Shown here piece by piece: positions 2,423 to 61,622 of a DNA stretch of 64,000 nt (positions within the stretch are counted from its first letter, which is position 1; each line of letters begins with the position of its first letter). The notes below the pieces were generated by a model, which did not search any database, was not told the DNA's origin, and saw nothing but the letters and a program-made list of their open reading frames with translations. A program made the translations under genes and the position numbers. This DNA is from Cytophagales bacterium (GTDB taxonomy: Bacteria; Bacteroidota; Bacteroidia; Cytophagales; 172606-1), in NCBI GenBank assembly GCA_030446715.1, contig JAUJMU010000001.1, positions 1-64,000 of the forward strand, read 5' to 3'.

Positions 2423-3193
2423 TTATCTTCCCATCCACCCGCCGTCTACGGTGAGAATGGTGCCGCTCACGTAGTCCGAGGCGCGGGAGGCCAGAAAAAC
2501 CGCAGCGCCTTTAAAATCGTCCGGTTCGCCCCAGCGGCCCGCCGGAATCCGCGACAGAATGGACTTGCTACGTTCCGGGTCATTGCGCAGGGCCTCTGTG
2601 TTGTCGGTGCTGATGTAGCCGGGAGCAATGGCGTTGACCTGCACGCCCTTGCCGGCCCATTCGTTGGCCAGTGCTTTGGTGAGGGAGCCGATGGCGCCCT
2701 TGCTGGCCGCGTAACCCGGCACCGTAATGCCGCCCTGAAAAGTGAGCAGGGAAGCGGTGAAAATGATTTTGCCGCCCCCCCGGACAACCATATCCCTGCC
2801 AAACTCGCGGCTGATGATGAACTGCGAATTGATGTTGACTTCCATGACTTCGTCCCAGTATTCGTCAGGATGTTCGGCGGCCGGTTTCCGGAGGATGGTG
2901 CCGGCATTGTTTATTAAAATATCTACCGGCGGACATTCCCGTTTTACCTGCTCAATGAACCCGTAGAGGCCCGGCCGGTCCGAAAAATTGCACTGGTACC
3001 CCCGGAAACTCCGGCCAGTGGCCCGTACCGCCTGTTCGACGGCACTGCCCGAAAGCTCCAGCGAAGCCGATACGCCGATGATGTCGGCACCGGCTTCGGC
3101 AAGGCCAATGGCCATTGCCTTGCCGATGCCCCGCTTGCAGCCGGTGACCAAAGCGGTTTTGCCCTTCAGGCTGAATTGTTCAGGTATGTGCAT
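2423..3193 (-). CDS. kduD: SDR oxidoreductase, KduD-like (2-deoxy-D-gluconate 3-dehydrogenase)
   Basis: A 256-residue short-chain dehydrogenase. Seen: NAD-binding TGCKRGIG at residues 17-24, NNAG near 95, a catalytic Ser (FTASLL) and YAASK motif near 145-162, and the C-terminal GRWGEPDDFKG...DGGWMGR pattern typical of KduD. KduD reduces or oxidises 2,5-diketo-3-deoxygluconate/2-deoxygluconate in uronate catabolism. It lies downstream of, and in the same direction as, a truncated zinc alcohol dehydrogenase, with a type F1 repeat filling the gap. The start ATG at 3193 sits inside the repeat's AACCATG phrase. The facing IclR gene is a plausible regulator. Other SDR sugar dehydrogenases cannot be excluded. 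Confidence 0.85.
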   Translation of the reverse strand: MHIPEQFSLKGKTALVTGCKRGIGKAMAIGLAEAGADIIGVSASLELSGSAVEQAVRATGRSFRGYQCNFSDRPGLYGFIEQVKRECPPVDILINNAGTILRKPAAEHPDEYWDEVMEVNINSQFIISREFGRDMVVRGGGKIIFTASLLTFQGGITVPGYAASKGAIGSLTKALANEWAGKGVQVNAIAPGYISTDNTEALRNDPERSKSILSRIPAGRWGEPDDFKGAAVFLASRASDYVSGTILTVDGGWMGR

Positions 3194-3275
3194 GGTTGGA
3201 TGTTTATATGGTTATATGGCTGCATTGCTCAATTGTTTAATTGCTGCATTGTCAGAGCAGCCATTCAATAGCTTC
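3191..3275 (-). repeat. intergenic phrase-repeat hairpin F1, copy 1 (shortened)
   Basis: On the plus strand the segment reads as iterated phrases (GGATGTTTATATGG, TTATATGGC, TGCATTGC, TCAATTGTTTAATTG, CTGCATTG), followed by a short opposite arm (AGCAGCCATTCAATAGC). It occupies the whole gap between the alcohol dehydrogenase stop (3274) and the kduD start (3193). The kduD start codon lies in the final AACCATG phrase. The opposite arm is much shorter than in the other three copies. Confidence 0.7.
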
Positions 3276-21002: not shown

Positions 21003-21110
21003 TTGAAAAATTATAAATTTTAGATTTTGAATTTTGAATTGAAAAAGTTAAAGCATGAATACCATCTGCTCAATCCAAAATTCATAATCCATCATTTAAA
21101 ATCTTGTTCT
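21003..21110. repeat. intergenic phrase repeat F2, copy a
   Basis: AT-rich facing arms: TAAATTTTAGATTTTGAATT then TTGAATTG on one side (21013-21041), and CAATCCAAAATTCATAATCC then ATCATTTAAAATCTTG on the other (21071-21106). The arms consist of iterated ATTTTGAAT phrases. The element lies between the barrel protein stop and the lptC start, both on the minus strand. Confidence 0.6.
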
Positions 21111-21123
21111 ACGAACAACCCGG

Positions 21124-22440
21124 TCAGTCAATTTTTGGTTTCAGGAACCAGCCAAAATCATTGATGGTAAAGCCAAACACCACGTTTATGTAACGTTCAC
21201 GGATCAGATTGCTCTCCAGGGTGCCGCGCTGTCCTATGGCAAGAGAAAGGTTCATGTACGAAACGCTGCGCCGGTCGGCGGGAGTAATGGGCAGGAATAC
21301 GCCACCCCGCAGGCTCACATCGCTTAATTGTTTACCTCCACCCGGCACCGAGAATGGCATCTGGGAGTAGTTGAGGCCAAACCGGTAAGTAGCCCTTTTG
21401 AAATAACTGTCAATTGACCGCCAGTCGGGGGTCCACTCGCCGCCCACGCCTAAGGTAAAGGTGTTCCGCAGAGCGCCGAGCTGGTTGTCGGCCTGCAGAT
21501 CAGAAAAACGGCGGAACGTCACATCGGCGGCCAAAGCCCAATGCAGGGGCTCTTCGAGGCTGACGCCAAGTTGGTAACCGCCCGGCAGCCTGGTTGTAGC
21601 GGACACGGTATCCAGCGGTACCAGCTCAATATATTCTCCGTCGGACTGGCCGCGGTACTGGATGGACGAAAACTGCTTGCCCTTCAGGTCGCGCGAGATG
21701 TCGTAGGTAGCACCTACGTTCCAGTATACCCGGTCGTTGAGCCGGTGGCGGTACACCACCCCCGGCTTGAACACAAGGTCAGACTGGTTGGTGCGGCGTA
21801 CGGATGCCACATTGTAACCAATCAATGAATCGGCAAACACCTGCGAAACGGCTTCCTTCGTAATGGAGCCGAACACAAAGCTGGTTTGCAGGCCAATGGC
21901 CAGATCCTGAATAAGCCGTTCCTGACCGTCTTCTTTCCGGAACACGGTCACGCCATTGGTGAAGCTGACCGCATTGAGTCCCCCCAGGCCACGGTAAGTA
22001 TACAGAGCCGGGGTAGTGCTCCCGATCACGGTGCCTCTGGTAGTACTCTCGTACTGATGCGCACTGTAAGGTGCCAGATTGACGCCCAGCGTCCAGCGGC
22101 GGCTGGCCGGAAAAGCAAGGGCAAGGTAGTTGAGGTTCAGGTTGAAGTCGCGCTGCTGAGCCTGGCCGGTTCTGAGCTGTTTCAGTCCGCCGGCAAAACC
22201 GACATCAAAGGCAGTGCTCCGGTTGCGGACCAGCAGGGCCGGATTGACATTGTTGATGAAGATACCGTTGGCATAGGCAGCACCCACGCTGCCAATGGCT
22301 ACGTTGGGAGCAAAGCCGGGGTAAACAAGTTCGCCAATACCGATCTGAGAATAGGGGGAGTTGCCGACACGTTGCGCAAATCCTGTCTGAACAGCCAGAC
22401 AGCAAAGCAGCATGACGGCAATCCTAAGTGAGTGAAACAT
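21124..22440 (-). CDS. outer-membrane beta-barrel protein (FadL/OmpP1-like, uncharacterised)
   Basis: A 438-residue protein with a signal peptide (MFHSLRIAVMLLCCLAVQTG, cleavage after FA-QR). The N-terminal RVGNSPYSQIGIGELVYPGF and the repeated amphipathic strands up to a terminal aromatic-containing strand (NVVFGFTINDFGWFLKPKID) indicate a large barrel. Its place between coaX and lptC is conserved in Bacteroidota. The start overlaps the coaX stop by 17 bp. Substrate unknown; similarity to fatty-acid or hydrophobic-compound transporters is by general architecture only. Confidence 0.82.
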   Translation of the reverse strand: MFHSLRIAVMLLCCLAVQTGFAQRVGNSPYSQIGIGELVYPGFAPNVAIGSVGAAYANGIFINNVNPALLVRNRSTAFDVGFAGGLKQLRTGQAQQRDFNLNLNYLALAFPASRRWTLGVNLAPYSAHQYESTTRGTVIGSTTPALYTYRGLGGLNAVSFTNGVTVFRKEDGQERLIQDLAIGLQTSFVFGSITKEAVSQVFADSLIGYNVASVRRTNQSDLVFKPGVVYRHRLNDRVYWNVGATYDISRDLKGKQFSSIQYRGQSDGEYIELVPLDTVSATTRLPGGYQLGVSLEEPLHWALAADVTFRRFSDLQADNQLGALRNTFTLGVGGEWTPDWRSIDSYFKRATYRFGLNYSQMPFSVPGGGKQLSDVSLRGGVFLPITPADRRSVSYMNLSLAIGQRGTLESNLIRERYINVVFGFTINDFGWFLKPKID

Positions 22441-23158
22441 TATGTAGTAAGATACGATTCAAGCCGATTAACACCAGTTCCGGCACCGCAAAGATGATGC
22501 CTTTTAATTGAGATTCAAAGAAATGCGCATCGCCGCCGCAGAGAATAGTGGTCAGGGGAAAAAACCGGGACCCGTACCGGGCCATCATGCCTTCTATTTC
22601 TCCCAGCAGGCCATTGACTACTCCGCTCTGCATGGCCGCACGGGTGGTTTTGCCGATGATTGCTGCACCAGCCTCCGGTTCAATTAACGGCAAACGTGCC
22701 GTAAACGTATGCATGGCCCGGAATCGCATGTGCAATCCCGGCGAAATAGCCCCGCCGTGGTAATTGCCGCCGGCATCCAGGAGGTCGTAGGTGATGCAGG
22801 TGCCAAGGTCAATCACGAGGCAGTGCTTACCCGGATACCGGGCGGCGGCTCCTGCTACGGCGGCCAGCCGGTCCATGCCCAGCGTCTGTGGCGATTCGTA
22901 CAGGTTGGCAACGGGTACGGGCAGGCGGTAATCCAGCACATAAACGGAAGAAATCACGGGCAGCAGCTGAGTCCGGAGTGCCGCCGCGTCGCCGCTTACC
23001 GAGCAGATGATCACGTGCCGGGGCCGCACCTCCTCTACCAGGGCCGGCAGTCCGGCAACCTCCACTCTCCGGGCTGGCTTTACCAGCATCTCTCCCTCAA
23101 AAATGCCCACCTTGGCGGCCGTATTGCCCAGATCAATGGCAATATTGTATGGTTGCAT
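22424..23158 (-). CDS. coaX: type III pantothenate kinase
   Basis: Catalyses ATP-dependent phosphorylation of pantothenate, the first step of coenzyme A synthesis. 244 residues. Seen: the N-terminal acetokinase-fold phosphate loop IAIDLGNTAAKVGIFEGE, the LGMDRLAAVAGA segment, CLVIDLGTCITYDLLDAGGN and GGAISPGLHMRFRAMHTFTA, all CoaX signatures. The ATG and first codons (MQPY) are read from the terminal AACCATGCAACCATAC phrase of an F1 repeat that fills the upstream gap. First gene of the coaX-OMP-lptC string. Confidence 0.95.
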   Translation of the reverse strand: MQPYNIAIDLGNTAAKVGIFEGEMLVKPARRVEVAGLPALVEEVRPRHVIICSVSGDAAALRTQLLPVISSVYVLDYRLPVPVANLYESPQTLGMDRLAAVAGAAARYPGKHCLVIDLGTCITYDLLDAGGNYHGGAISPGLHMRFRAMHTFTARLPLIEPEAGAAIIGKTTRAAMQSGVVNGLLGEIEGMMARYGSRFFPLTTILCGGDAHFFESQLKGIIFAVPELVLIGLNRILLHNVSLT

Positions 23159-23338
23159 GGTTACATTGCTGAATTGTTGCGCTGTTCAATTGTTGCATTG
23201 CTACATTGTTTAATTGCCTGATTGTTGGACGGCTATATGGTCATATGGTTGTATGGCCGGCATGATCCTTACAGAAGCAGACAATCTGACAATGCAGCAA
23301 TGCAACAGTTTAGCAATTTAACCATACAACCATTCAAC
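23150..23338 (-). repeat. intergenic phrase-repeat hairpin F1, copy 2 (core-containing)
   Basis: Fills the entire gap between the coiled-coil protein stop (23334) and the coaX start (23158). Read in the direction of transcription, a TTG-rich arm (GTTGAATGGTTGTATGG, TTAAATTGC, GTTGCATTGC) is followed by a core, then by a CAA-rich arm (CCATACAACC, CAATTAAACAATGTAGC, AATGCAACAATTG). The core CAGATTGTCTGCTTCTG-N-AAGGATCATGCCGGC (23256-23288) recurs in copy 4. The arms can fold into a long imperfect stem. Confidence 0.75.
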
Positions 23339-23891
23339 TCATCAGCAAGCCGTAAAGGATGATCAGTACCACGCCGGCCACCAGCACGGCAAGGCCGATG
23401 AGCCAGTAGTTGACCGCGGGTGCTTCCGGTACGGGGGCAGAACGTTCTGAAGGGTTACGTTCGGGCAGCGAAAGGCTCAGTTTGGTTTCCAGCGCCTGTT
23501 TGCTCTGTTCGAGTGAATAGATAATGTTGTTCTGTTCGCGGCTTCGTTCGATCAGTTGAGTGAGCTGGGTATCTTTGGCAGCCAGTTGCCGGTCCTTCTC
23601 GGCCAGCTGCGTCTCCAGCAGGGCAATCAGCGTAGATTTATCGGGACCGCCGGGGGCAGGAGCAGACATCGGTTCAGGCTCGGGGGCGGCCGGGGCAACT
23701 TGCGCGACGGCAGCTTTCGGTACCACGCCAAGGTGCTTGTTCATAAAATCAAGCCTGATCCGGAACAGCCCGTCCTCAAAGCGGACGTACTTGCTGCTGC
23801 GGTGCTCCTCGCAGAAACGGCTGATTTCGCGTACGGAATGCCCCGACAGCCGGGCGGCCTTTTTTACGGAAACAAACTGCTTATCTGCCAT
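23334..23891 (-). CDS. tail-anchored coiled-coil protein with N-terminal helix-turn-helix-like segment
   Basis: A protein of about 185 residues from the ATG at 23891 (MADKQFVSVKKAARLSGHSV); an upstream ATG at 23924 is possible. Seen: an N-terminal MerR/excisionase-like segment (SVKKAARLSGHSVREISRFC), a proline/alanine linker, a coiled coil (LLETQLAEKDRQLAAKDTQL onward) and one C-terminal membrane helix (WLIGLAVLVAGVVLIILYGL). This layout suggests a membrane-tethered DNA- or protein-binding factor. No specific family recognised. It precedes coaX on the same strand. Confidence 0.72.
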   Translation of the reverse strand: MADKQFVSVKKAARLSGHSVREISRFCEEHRSSKYVRFEDGLFRIRLDFMNKHLGVVPKAAVAQVAPAAPEPEPMSAPAPGGPDKSTLIALLETQLAEKDRQLAAKDTQLTQLIERSREQNNIIYSLEQSKQALETKLSLSLPERNPSERSAPVPEAPAVNYWLIGLAVLVAGVVLIILYGLLMS

Positions 23892-24018
23892 TGGCCGGGA
23901 GTCGTTTAGGGGAAAGATGCGCAAAATTGTTGGTTAGGGGCAAATAAAATAATAGTTTTAAGATTGATCTTTCTGACCCGGCGATCTTTTCCACTCATAA
24001 ACCTTTCGGGTATTGCGC

Positions 24019-26163
24019 ATGAAAACAAACTTTGTCAACCTCCTCTCCGGTACCCTGCTGAGCCTTTGCCTGGCAGCCGGAGCAAATGCCCAGTCACAAA
24101 TGGCCAACACCGCTCCCCTTCAGCCGCCGGCGGCTAAGAAAAACCCGAAGCAGCTCACGATGCACGGCGTTACGCGTACTGACAACTACTACTGGCTCAA
24201 CCAGCGGGAAGATCCGGAAGTGATTGCGTACCTGAACGCCGAAAACAGCTATCTGAAGCAGAAAATGGCGCATACCGAAGCCTTACAGGAAAAACTGTAC
24301 AACGAAATGCGCGGACGCATCAGGGAAGACGACGCTTCCGTGCCTTTTCTGGAGAATGGTTTCTATTACTATACCCGCTACGAAAAGGGCGGCGAATACC
24401 CGCTGTACTGCCGCCGGAAAGGGTCGCTTACCGCCACCGAAGAAATCATGATCAACGGCAACGAGATGGGCAGGGGCAAAGGCTATTTCAGTATCAGCGG
24501 CTGGCAGGTAAGTCCCAACAGCAATCTGCTTACGTTTGCCGTAGATACCATTGGCCGCCGCATTTACAACCTCCGGTTCAAGGACCTGAAAACGGGTAAA
24601 ATGCTGCCCGACGTGATTACCGCCACCACGCCCAATGTCGCCTGGGCCGCCGATAATCAGACGGTATTCTACACCCGGCAAGACCTGCAGACGCTCCGCT
24701 GGGATAAGATTTACCGCCACCAGCTGGGCACGGACCCGGCAAAAGACGTGCTGGTCTACAATGAGCCCGACGAAACTTTCTACGCTTCGGTAGGCCGGAG
24801 CAAATCCAGAAAATACATCCTCATCAACTCGGGCAACAGTTCTTCCATGACTTCCGAAGCTCAGTATCTGGAAGCGGGTAATCCGGCCGGCCCTTTCAGG
24901 ATGTTCCTGCCCCGCCAGAAAGGCCACCAGTACGACATTGACCACGCCGACGGCAGGTTTTACATCCGCACCAACGACGGAGCCCAAAACTTTAAGCTGA
25001 TGTCGGCAGCGGAAGGCAACCTCGCCAAAGCCAGCTGGAACGAAGTGGTGCCGCACCGCCCGGACGTGCTGCTGGAGGGCTTCGACCTGTTCAAAGATTA
25101 CCTGGTGCTGCAGGAACGGGCCAGGGGCCTGACCCAGATTCAGGTCAGGGGCCTGGAGCGGCGACGCCCACTTTCCGGACTTCGGCGAAGCGGCCTACAC
25201 GGCTTCCGTGGCGCATAACCCCGAATACAATACCAAAACCCTGCGCTACAACTACACTTCCATGACCACCCCCAGTCGGTGTATGATTACGACATGGCGG
25301 CCCGTACGCGCAGGCTGATGAAACAGACGGAGGTGCCGGGCAGTTTCGATTCTGAAAATTACCAGACCGAACGGCTGTTCGCCACGGCTTCTGACGGCAC
25401 CAAAGTGCCAGTTTCACTGGTGTACCGCAAGGGCATCCGCAAAGATGGCAACAATCCGCTGCTGGTGTACGGCTACGGTTCTTACGGCATTTCTATGAAC
25501 CCAGGGTTCAACTCATCGGCGCTGAGTCTGCTGGACCGCGGCTTTGTGTACGCCATTGCCCACATCCGCGGTGGTCAGGACATGGGCCGCGCATGGTACG
25601 AAGACGGGAAGTTGTTCAAGAAAAAGAACACCTTCACCGACTTTATCGCCTGCACGGAATTTCTGCAGAAAGAAGGCTTTTCGCGGCCCGGAAAGACCTT
25701 TGCCATGGGCGGCAGTGCCGGTGGCCTGCTGATGGGTGCCGTCATGAACATGCGTCCCGACCTGTACAAGGGCATGATTGCGGCCGTACCGTTTGTGGAC
25801 GTGGTGACCACCATGCTCGATTCGTCCATTCCACTGACCACCAATGAATACGACGAATGGGGCAACCCGAACGAGAAGGAATATTTCGATTACATGCTGT
25901 CTTACTCACCGTACGACCACATAGAAACAAAAAAATACCCGAACCTGCTGATTACGACCGGCCTGCACGATTCGCAGGTGCAGTACTGGGAGCCGGCCAA
26001 GTGGGTAGCCAGGTTGCGCGAACTGAATAAAGAAAACAACCTGCTGCTCCACACCAACATGGAAGCCGGCCACGGCGGCGCTTCCGGCCGCTTCCGCCGC
26101 TACAAGGAAACGGCTATGCAATACGCTTTTCTGCTGGACCTGGCAGGGGTAAAACAGCAATAA
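24019..26163 (+). CDS. S9A prolyl oligopeptidase / oligopeptidase B-like, two frameshifts
   Basis: A secreted serine peptidase: signal peptide from the ATG at 24019, N-terminal [20 protein letters not shown] and [18 protein letters not shown] typical of PtrB-like enzymes, beta-propeller to about residue 430, then the hydrolase domain. The triad is present: Ser in [11 protein letters not shown], Asp in [12 protein letters not shown], His in [11 protein letters not shown]. The frame breaks near 25155 and again near 25275. In the third frame between them the family sequence continues ([39 protein letters not shown]), so each break is a one-base indel. Corrected length is about 715 residues, normal. 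Sequencing error is the simpler explanation. Confidence 0.88.
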
Positions 26164-30520: not shown

Positions 30521-30561
30521 AAGTTATAAATTTTAAATGCTGAATTTTGAATGCTTAATGG
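30521..30561. repeat. phrase repeat F2, copy b (single arm)
   Basis: Directly after the pheS stop, TATAAATTTTAAATGCTGAA and TTTTGAATGCTTAATGG carry the same iterated phrases as F2 copy a. It abuts the broken end of a VOC gene, so it lies at a deletion or insertion boundary. No facing arm is present. Confidence 0.5.
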
Positions 30562-56049: not shown

Positions 56050-56246
56050 TGTTGACAAGGAAGGTTATGGCTGTATGGTTATATGGCTGCATTGTTGCAT
56101 TGTTAAATTGTTGTCAGGCTGAACGGTCATTTTCCGGACCTCCAGCAATTCAACAGTTAAACAATTGGGCAATTGAACAACTCAGCCATTCAGCCATATA
56201 ATATGATCATCATTTGGGTATTAATGGCTGTGTGATTGAATGGTTA
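56050..56246 (-). repeat. intergenic phrase-repeat hairpin F1, copy 3
   Basis: Occupies the mutA-mutB gap and reaches the mutA stop codon (56244-56246). TTATGGCTGTATGGTTATAT, GGCTGCATTGTTGCATTG and TTAAATTGTTGTCAG (56064-56116) face CAATTCAACAGTTAAACAAT, TGGGCAATTGAACAACTCAG and CCATTCAGCCATATAA (56156-56201). The core (GGCTGAACGGTCATTTTCCG) differs from copies 2 and 4. Confidence 0.7.
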
Positions 56247-60900: not shown

Positions 60901-61485
60901 ATGAAAAGATTCGGTTTGATTGCCATTGTAGCAATAGCACTTGTACTGCTGATGGGCGGTTGTGGCACTTACAATAATCTCGTCGGTAAGGAAGAAAACG
61001 TCCGCAATGCCTGGAGCCAGGTGGAAGCGCAGTACCAGCGCCGCGCCGATCTGATTCCTAATCTGGTGAATACAGTGAAGGGAGCAGCTAATTTTGAAAG
61101 GGAAACCCTTACAGAAGTGATCAATGCCCGGGCCCGGGCTACGTCCATAAACGTTGACCCTGCCAATCTGTCTCCTGAGCAGATCCAGCAGTTTCAGCAG
61201 GCCCAGCAAGGGCTGAGTTCGGCACTGGGTCGTTTACTGGCTGTGGCAGAAGCATATCCGCAGCTGAGGGCCACGGAAAGCTTCCGGGATTTGCAGGCCC
61301 AGCTGGAAGGGACCGAAAACCGGATCACGGTAGCCCGTAACCGGTATAACGACGCCGTAAATACCTACAATGTCGGCCGCCGTACTTTTCCGGCCAATAT
61401 ATTCGCAGGCATGTTTGGCTTTGGCGACAAAGGTTACTTTACCGCTCAGCCGGGCTCTGACCGGACACCAACGGTGCAGTTTTAA
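60901..61485 (+). CDS. LemA family protein
   Basis: 194 residues from the ATG at 60901. A hydrophobic N-terminus (LIAIVAIALVLLMGGCGTYN) is either a signal anchor or a lipoprotein signal (Cys in LMGGC). The LemA helical domain follows: NLVGKEENVRNAWSQVEAQY, QRRADLIPNLVNTVKGAANF, SSALGRLLAVAEAYPQLRAT, ESFRDLQAQLEGTENRITVA and RNRYNDAVNTYNVGRRTFPA. First gene of the lemA-TPM-TPM cluster common in Bacteroidota. The stop is followed directly by an F1 repeat. Confidence 0.94.
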   Translation: MKRFGLIAIVAIALVLLMGGCGTYNNLVGKEENVRNAWSQVEAQYQRRADLIPNLVNTVKGAANFERETLTEVINARARATSINVDPANLSPEQIQQFQQAQQGLSSALGRLLAVAEAYPQLRATESFRDLQAQLEGTENRITVARNRYNDAVNTYNVGRRTFPANIFAGMFGFGDKGYFTAQPGSDRTPTVQF

Positions 61486-61622
61486 ATGGCTGGATGGTTG
61501 AATTGCTTGATTGTTGCATTGTCAGATTGTCTGCTTCTGAAAGGATCATGCCGGCCATATAGCCATATAACAATTTAAACAATGCAACAATTTGATCATC
61601 CAGCCCCATAACCGTTCAACCC
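61484..61622 (+). repeat. intergenic phrase-repeat hairpin F1, copy 4 (core-containing)
   Basis: Starts at the lemA stop codon and ends 20 bp before the next gene. The 5' arm has GGCTGGATGGTTGAATTGC and TTGATTGTTGCATTGTCAG. The core (CAGATTGTCTGCTTCTG, one base, AAGGATCATGCCGGC) spans 61523-61555. The 3' arm has CATATAGCCATATAACAATT, TAAACAATGCAACAATTTGA and TCATCCAGCCCC. The 44-nt block at 61516-61559 matches copy 2 (23252-23295, opposite strand) with one mismatch, and both face the same way relative to transcription. Confidence 0.75.

Follow-up and report, generated by a model that had tools for sequence, protein, structure and literature searches.

The question raised by this locus is whether a palindromic repeat that lies 5' of a gene for type III pantothenate kinase, coaX, merely borders that gene or has come to supply its start codon and first residues. 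The window analysed here is a stretch of 64,000 nucleotides from a Cytophagales bacterium, and an initial annotation, made from its sequence, had claimed that coaX begins ATG CAA CCA TAC within the end of a repeat arm, so that the residues MQPY come from the repeat, and that the start codon of a second gene, kduD, lies in a similar phrase. It also proposed that such a repeat could be a way to insert without losing expression, or to replace a translation start. The features at coaX are as follows.

22424 to 23158, minus strand: coaX, type III pantothenate kinase, 244 aa (PF03309, E 5e-45, residues 6-194)
23156 to 23158, minus strand: start codon of coaX (ATG), within the repeat word AACCATGC
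23147 to 23155, minus strand: coaX codons 2-4, CAA CCA TAC (Q P Y), repeat-derived; TAC is at the position of the relatives' start codon
23145 to 23337, minus strand: palindromic word repeat, 5' of coaX and running into it; bounds set by the base pairing of both ends
23145 to 23254, minus strand: exit arm (coaX side), tandem 8-bp words ARCMATNN, ending in AACCATGC AACCATAC AA
23255 to 23280, minus strand: core CTGCTTCTGTAAGGATCATGCCGGCC, one base off the core at 61531-61556 (plus strand)
23281 to 23337, minus strand: entry arm (upstream-gene side), reverse-complement words, the first of which holds the upstream stop TGA (23336-23334)
23334 to 23891, minus strand: upstream gene, 185 aa, without a Pfam match at E 0.001; its stop codon falls in the repeat's first word and is at the native position

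The coaX product matches PF03309 and contains a DLGNT motif, which together we take to be the mark of a type III pantothenate kinase. On the minus strand its 5' end reads ATG CAA CCA TAC AAT ATT GCC ATT GAT CTG GGC AAT ACG, and the protein begins M Q P Y N I A I D L G N T. The frame 5' of this ATG (TAQQFSNVT) holds no ATG, GTG, or TTG after its last stop codon, and in the 3' direction an in-frame GTG first comes at codon 17, beyond DLGNT; the arm ATG is thus the sole conventional start of the gene, and the peptide expected from it is (M)QPYNIAIDLGNTAAK. The gene is intact and constrained, with dN 0.16, dS 0.93, and dN/dS about 0.17 against the closest relative, G002, a ratio that spans the whole divergence from G002, including the time before the repeat arrived. 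First three residues aside, the two genes align without gaps; at 76% identity, G002 is too distant to show the junction as it formed. The same genome carries another coaX-like gene (G000:C18:373035-373772, L036), which shares 31% identity with coaX and has similar genes in G001 and G002, and coaX itself may be dispensable because of it.

The architecture of the repeat sets the boundary between element and gene. On the coaX side, the word array reads AACAATTG AACAGCGC AACAATTC AGCAATGT AACCATGC AACCATAC AA, and on the opposite side the words run, from the upstream stop codon on, TTGAATGG TTGTATGG TTAAATTG. The two ends, TTGAATGGTTGTATGGTTA and TAACCATGCAACCATACAA, are complementary at 17 of 19 positions. 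The coaX ATG lies in one word and the next is completed by codons 2-4, as seen in minus-strand positions 23170 to 23145 (AGCAATGTAACCATGCAACCATACAA). Because the arms pair as far as coaX codon 5, ATG-CAA-CCA-TAC-AA is repeat sequence, and the claim that the arm end holds the coaX start stands. The word AACCATAC, on the coding side, is in 8-bp register with the rest of the arm, a match that would arise by chance about once in 1024 per given position if letter frequencies were equal. The pattern ARCMATGNARCMAT has eight occurrences in the window, where shuffled sequence gives 0.07 on average, and all eight fall within four repeat elements, namely the coaX copy, one at kduD (below), and the following two.

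56060 to 56197, strand not assigned: two-armed word repeat with a different core
61485 to 61591, strand not assigned: two-armed word repeat, its core like that of the coaX copy, beginning at the lemA stop codon

A search of the repeat against Rfam returned just three miRNA families of animals, with scores far under the gathering thresholds.

Relatives that lack the arm show where coaX natively starts. The gene was found in all eight genomes of the family, and its N-terminus is readable in six relatives (G001-G006); G007 was left out, its match beginning at a contig edge. In G002 the gene opens GTG AAC CTC GCC, in G001 ATG AAT CTC GTT, and in G003 ATG AAT ATA GCA, while G004, G005, and G006 have ATG followed by Asn-Leu. 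In all six, then, the start is the codon that matches TAC (Y4) in the window, and the protein opens (M/V)N[LI]. The DNA upstream of these six genes (75-320 nt inspected) is unrelated, and no arm was seen in it. Among 12 named coaX loci in a wider set, eight were inspected (L132-L135 were missed by the motif). Two have Met directly before Asn (L124, L128) and one has TTG at that place (L130); L129 and L131 have other short N-termini, and the three Spirosoma proteins (L125-L127) carry unrelated, longer N-termini without a Met immediately in front of the NLVID or YLVID block. Neither the six family relatives nor the eight further loci have MQPY. The comparison proposed at the outset, of N-termini in relatives without the repeat, accordingly came out in favour of a repeat-borne start for coaX.

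The second gene in question, kduD, gives a different picture.

2423 to 3193, minus strand: kduD-like SDR dehydrogenase; start ATG at 3193-3191, native position, reached by a repeat
3191 to 3273, minus strand: repeat between the upstream stop (3276-3274) and the start codon of kduD; 8-bp words found at 3191-3253, the remainder entry-arm-like by eye only

The gene begins CATCCAACC ATG CAC ATA CCT, and its ATG does lie in the repeat phrase CATCCAACCATGCACATACC, as had been noted, but the comparison gives no sign of a start supplied by the repeat. Setting aside the window's own gene, the Met stands at the same spacing from a GK(T/V/I)ALVTG motif in seven of eight family sequences (six in relatives plus a second copy in the same genome, L052), the exception being a shorter second copy in G002. 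The N-termini are MSIVNLFDLTGK, MSLSALFDLSGK, MNLNELFDLSGK, MSNNSLFDLTGK (two), and MAILDLFNLTGK in the family, MSISTLFDLSGK in the second copy, and MHIPEQFSLKGK in the window. We rejected kduD as a second start replacement on this evidence: here the repeat only reaches the native start.

Other genes with a start codon in an arm were sought by sequence pattern. A non-exhaustive survey for exact arm words with CCATG, in which the ATG has to follow a complete word and precede NAR and which misses kduD and arms ending in CAATG, returned 12 in the genome of the window. Four open frames of at least 97 aa: coaX, PRA isomerase (PF00697), a thioesterase, and a cyclic-nucleotide-binding protein, with a displaced native start in coaX only; the thioesterase and the cyclic-nucleotide-binding protein each have a further in-frame ATG that is the likelier start. 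The PRA isomerase (L113) begins MQPRIKICC and its orthologue in G016 MKPRVKICC, at the same length, and other N-termini vary (MVRVKICC, MIRVKICC, MKRPRVKICC, and longer forms; 13 loci in other families, the gene itself counted among them, 10 caught by the motif); there is no sign of a moved start, although one is conceivable. At L105 and L114, the arm adds an upstream in-frame ATG, but a second, likelier ATG follows. Six further genomes rich in the repeat gave 11 such exact words, spread over four of the six; one word opens a gene (argD of G007, 379 aa) and the rest open frames of at most 28 codons. This argD (MQLFNVY) was likewise rejected, since the start is at the same position in all five relatives inspected: ATG in G005 and G006 (MDLFNVY) and G000 (MKLFDVY), and TTG in G001 and G002 (G003 and G004 were missed by the motif). 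Codon 2 is CAN in coaX, kduD, PRA isomerase, and argD, its A being set by the search pattern for the latter two. In kduD, PRA isomerase, and argD, the arm may have overwritten a native ATG in place, which is indistinguishable from simple abutting.

Enrichment of word-borne ATGs near elements was not established in these counts. Among 46 window genes away from elements, none has a perfect ARCM before its first in-frame ATG and eight have it with one mismatch. In 40 sampled stretches, 34 gene 5' ends face an arm; 18 of these, chosen by hand, were inspected, and three have a perfect in-frame word ATG (L113, L105, L114), only L113 being without a second ATG nearby.

On the other side of the coaX repeat, the upstream gene ends LLMS* in the window and LLLG* in its G002 orthologue; ending alike, the two place the stop codon in its native position. 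The gene is found in three of the eight family genomes, the window's own counted. In G002 it lies on the same contig as coaX, stops at the same position, and is accompanied by the same downstream gene, but it is separated from coaX by about 1.5 kb in which further ORFs are predicted, the last of them overlapping the coaX GTG; G002 is not a clean empty site. The repeat of the window occupies the place of this 1.5 kb, and different ORFs again lie 5' of coaX in the other relatives. At 24013-26163, the ORF list suggests that a gene presumably prolyl oligopeptidase-like, by the look of its sequence, is broken into two frames near 25218-25279. Different word-like intergenic repeats occur at 21008-21053 and 30521-30552 of the window (AAATTTTAGATTTTGAATTTTGAATT) and in L105 near 1137-1165 (TTGTCAATTATCAATTTTCAATT).

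The coaX copy belongs to an abundant family. A search for three consecutive words, allowing up to one mismatch, gives 441 matches in the 6.4-Mb genome, where a reversed control gives one. Within the family, there are 312 matches in G001 (same genus), 155 in G007, and 41 in G004, with two in G002, one in G003, four in G005, and one in G006; elsewhere in the order, G009 has 208, G102 245, G051 105, and G139 188. At least one match is present in 102 of 148 genomes of the order, many with no more than their own control. Words thus occur by the hundred in scattered families (G000, G001, G007, G009, G051, G102, G139) and are nearly absent from sister species, and this patchy spread suggests repeated expansion or horizontal spread.

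Placement was described for 48 elements, 44 from 40 stretches around zero-mismatch places on contigs C2 to C13 and the four of the window. Both arms are present in inverted orientation in 34 and a single arm was detected in 14. With neighbouring genes called by a simple codon score, 34 elements lie between co-directional, 12 between convergent, and two between divergent genes. Arms adjoin stop codons more often than starts: of 58 gene 3' ends that face an arm, 27 have it within 8 nt of the stop codon or overlapping it, seven at exactly 0, as a raw count. At the convergent pairs L089, L108, L111, L123, and L095 (second element), the arms span approximately stop to stop, with gaps of 0-6 nt on both sides, and by analogy they may resemble a bidirectional terminator that fills the gap. 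Similar arms (window 56060-56197 and 61485-61591; loci L084-L123) surround at least three different cores, such as CTGCTTCTGAAGGATCATGCCGGCC (L108), GGAGGCCCGGGAAATGACCGTTCAG (L089), and TCTGAAGAATTATTCCGATCCTGCGGCCCC (L086), and the L108 and L089 cores occur in either orientation. Exit halves of the 34 two-armed elements number 68 and hold 70 ATGs; 50 of these have at least 12 nt of context, and among them a purine stands at -3 in 45, an A at -3 in 32, and an A at -12 in 38.

We propose that a REP-like palindrome very probably replaced the native start of coaX and that its own ATG, with a harmless extension (MQPY for M), restored translation. We infer the use of the arm ATG, the manner in which the repeat arrived, and the order of events, which would run as follows. 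A REP-like intergenic palindrome of degenerate tandem 8-bp words would have come between the upstream gene and coaX, removing the native start codon of the latter. Its last words would have brought an in-frame ATG (AACC-ATG-C AACC-ATAC) three codons before the first retained coaX codon, and selection would have kept a junction at which this ATG restores translation and the extension does no harm. Bacteroidetes mRNAs are described as naturally without Shine-Dalgarno sequences, and in Flavobacterium johnsoniae A at -3, -6, -12, and -13 together with low structure favours initiation (PMC6847099). Because Bacteroidota largely lack Shine-Dalgarno sites and the words give a purine at -3 and often an A at -12, such a takeover would be easy; likewise, with this context at most exit ATGs, the arm would make a tolerable leader. 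Against the arm as leader, it adds AUGs, contrary to the reported under-representation of AUG around Bacteroidetes starts (PMC6847099), and the full palindrome is predicted to hide the coaX AUG. Alternatively, the repeat could abut the native coaX start as it does in kduD, MQPY being an old coding extension that is word-like by chance or drift. Arm ATGs do stand at native positions in kduD, in argD of G007, and, judged by the one orthologue in G016, in PRA isomerase, and the variable CoaX N-termini of Spirosoma, which are unrelated to the repeat, also speak against replacement. We nonetheless regard this alternative as quite unlikely, since none of the coaX relatives inspected has the MQPY residues and the coding-side word is both in 8-bp register and paired with the opposite arm.

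The proposed replacement would leave the coaX AUG at the base of a stem, and a further reading holds that the hairpin is a translational coupler, in which a ribosome terminating at the upstream stop opens the stem, with stop and AUG at its base, and coaX initiates. RNA of positions 23345-23120 is predicted to fold at -85.8 kcal/mol against -53.9 (sd 4.1) in 200 shuffles (z -7.9), with the upstream stop region and coaX codons 1-5 as its outermost pairs. In the model, the coaX AUG has an unpaired probability of 0.00 in free RNA. Averaged over -15..+15, the unpaired probability is 0.20, and it goes up to 0.51 once a ribosome footprint covers the upstream stop; a footprint placed further upstream gives 0.14. 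No TAnnTTTG motif occurs on the coaX strand in 23900-23100, so co-transcription is plausible. However, with the footprint on the stop the AUG is predicted to re-pair with upstream sequence (0.03), a transcript that starts inside the loop would be equally open (0.54, AUG 0.24), and arms generally pair no better within elements than between them. Co-variation of arms within elements was unsupported among the 34 two-armed copies, the mean being -38.0 kcal/mol within and -40.7 between, a comparison confounded by arm length, and the own partner is the best match in one of 34, namely coaX. Coupling of coaX to the upstream gene is possible in this model and speculative, and as the main explanation of the locus it seems rather improbable. 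It is highly unlikely that the element is a translation-compatible, putatively mobile spacer selected for entry stops and exit start codons. The abutment of arms on stops and the good context of exit ATGs would fit such a spacer, but entry stops are only slightly enriched (a stop falls within 24 nt in 54% of 204 entry frames and in 44% of those from mononucleotide shuffles), a single start replacement is verified, and an abutting pattern is described for ordinary REPs (PMC3733652). A broader version, in which the word palindromes of the order are translation-compatible spacers, an arm can take over a gene start because Bacteroidota initiate on unstructured, A-rich leaders, and the stem base at coaX couples genes that are non-adjacent in the closest relative, we consider unlikely. 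Of the two general properties suggested at the outset, replacement of a translation start is upheld for coaX, where all six relatives start at the Y4 codon without an arm, and unsupported as a general property, with kduD and argD keeping the same start position; insertion without loss of expression as a general strategy was not borne out, start replacement being supported once.

Among known systems, the repeat is closest in placement to the GTAG/CGTC REPs, which are described as lying near 3' ends, with termini that can supply a stop codon and some that overlap N-terminal coding sequence (PMC3733652). As in that description, the elements here are intergenic palindromes next to 3' ends, mostly in co-directional or convergent settings (PMC3733652), and their extragenic position, high copy number (441 vs 1), and mostly non-divergent setting (34/12/2 of 48) are those of REPs. 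They differ in being two-armed, with tandem 8-bp words, lengths of 73-209 bp, and several cores. The REP class is further defined by a GTAG or CGTC tag at one end of a palindrome of 20-40 bp and by an associated RAYT tyrosine transposase. By analogy, then, the repeat would be REP-like in placement, a likeness that rests on placement and palindromy. TAACTGA heptamer arrays, often found just 5' of start codons and patchy over distant lineages including Bacteroidetes, are likewise short tandem word arrays; as described, they are direct, non-palindromic repeats of one exact word with period 7, and the account of them drawn on here describes no supplied start (PMC4679880). The words here are degenerate, have a period of 8, and form inverted pairs. 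MITEs such as BrickBuilt of Porphyromonas (PMC4596501) and QMITE of Coxiella (PMC5896051) share the terminal inverted repeats found here, and one of them holds a minisatellite. QMITE insertions are reported to give genes a stop or C-terminal residues (PMC5896051), whereas start replacement goes unmentioned in the sections of the BrickBuilt (PMC4596501) and QMITE (PMC5896051) reports used here. The 8-bp words themselves found no description in the titles and abstract openings listed from one open-licence library, where the word strings led to a single, unrelated plant paper.

Rickettsia palindromic elements are palindromic repeats that become part of proteins. Rickettsia proteins with an N-terminal RPE-1 are reported to be expressed, and RPEs are described as interrupting or decorating coding regions (PMC3733652); at coaX, in contrast, the repeat carries the start codon, and the native start has been lost.

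In summary, coaX provides a concrete case, checked against relatives, of an enzyme gene under constraint whose start codon was replaced by a repeat. Among REPs, overlaps with N-termini have in many instances been ascribed to wrong start calls, the overlap perhaps being extragenic and translation perhaps starting downstream (PMC3733652); at coaX, where the overlap replaced the start and relatives show the native one, that escape is closed. A start codon inside an arm does not by itself indicate a new start, for kduD and argD look alike yet keep their native positions. The coaX case fits the loose start-site rules of Bacteroidota and would make a simple test case for how repeats remodel gene starts.
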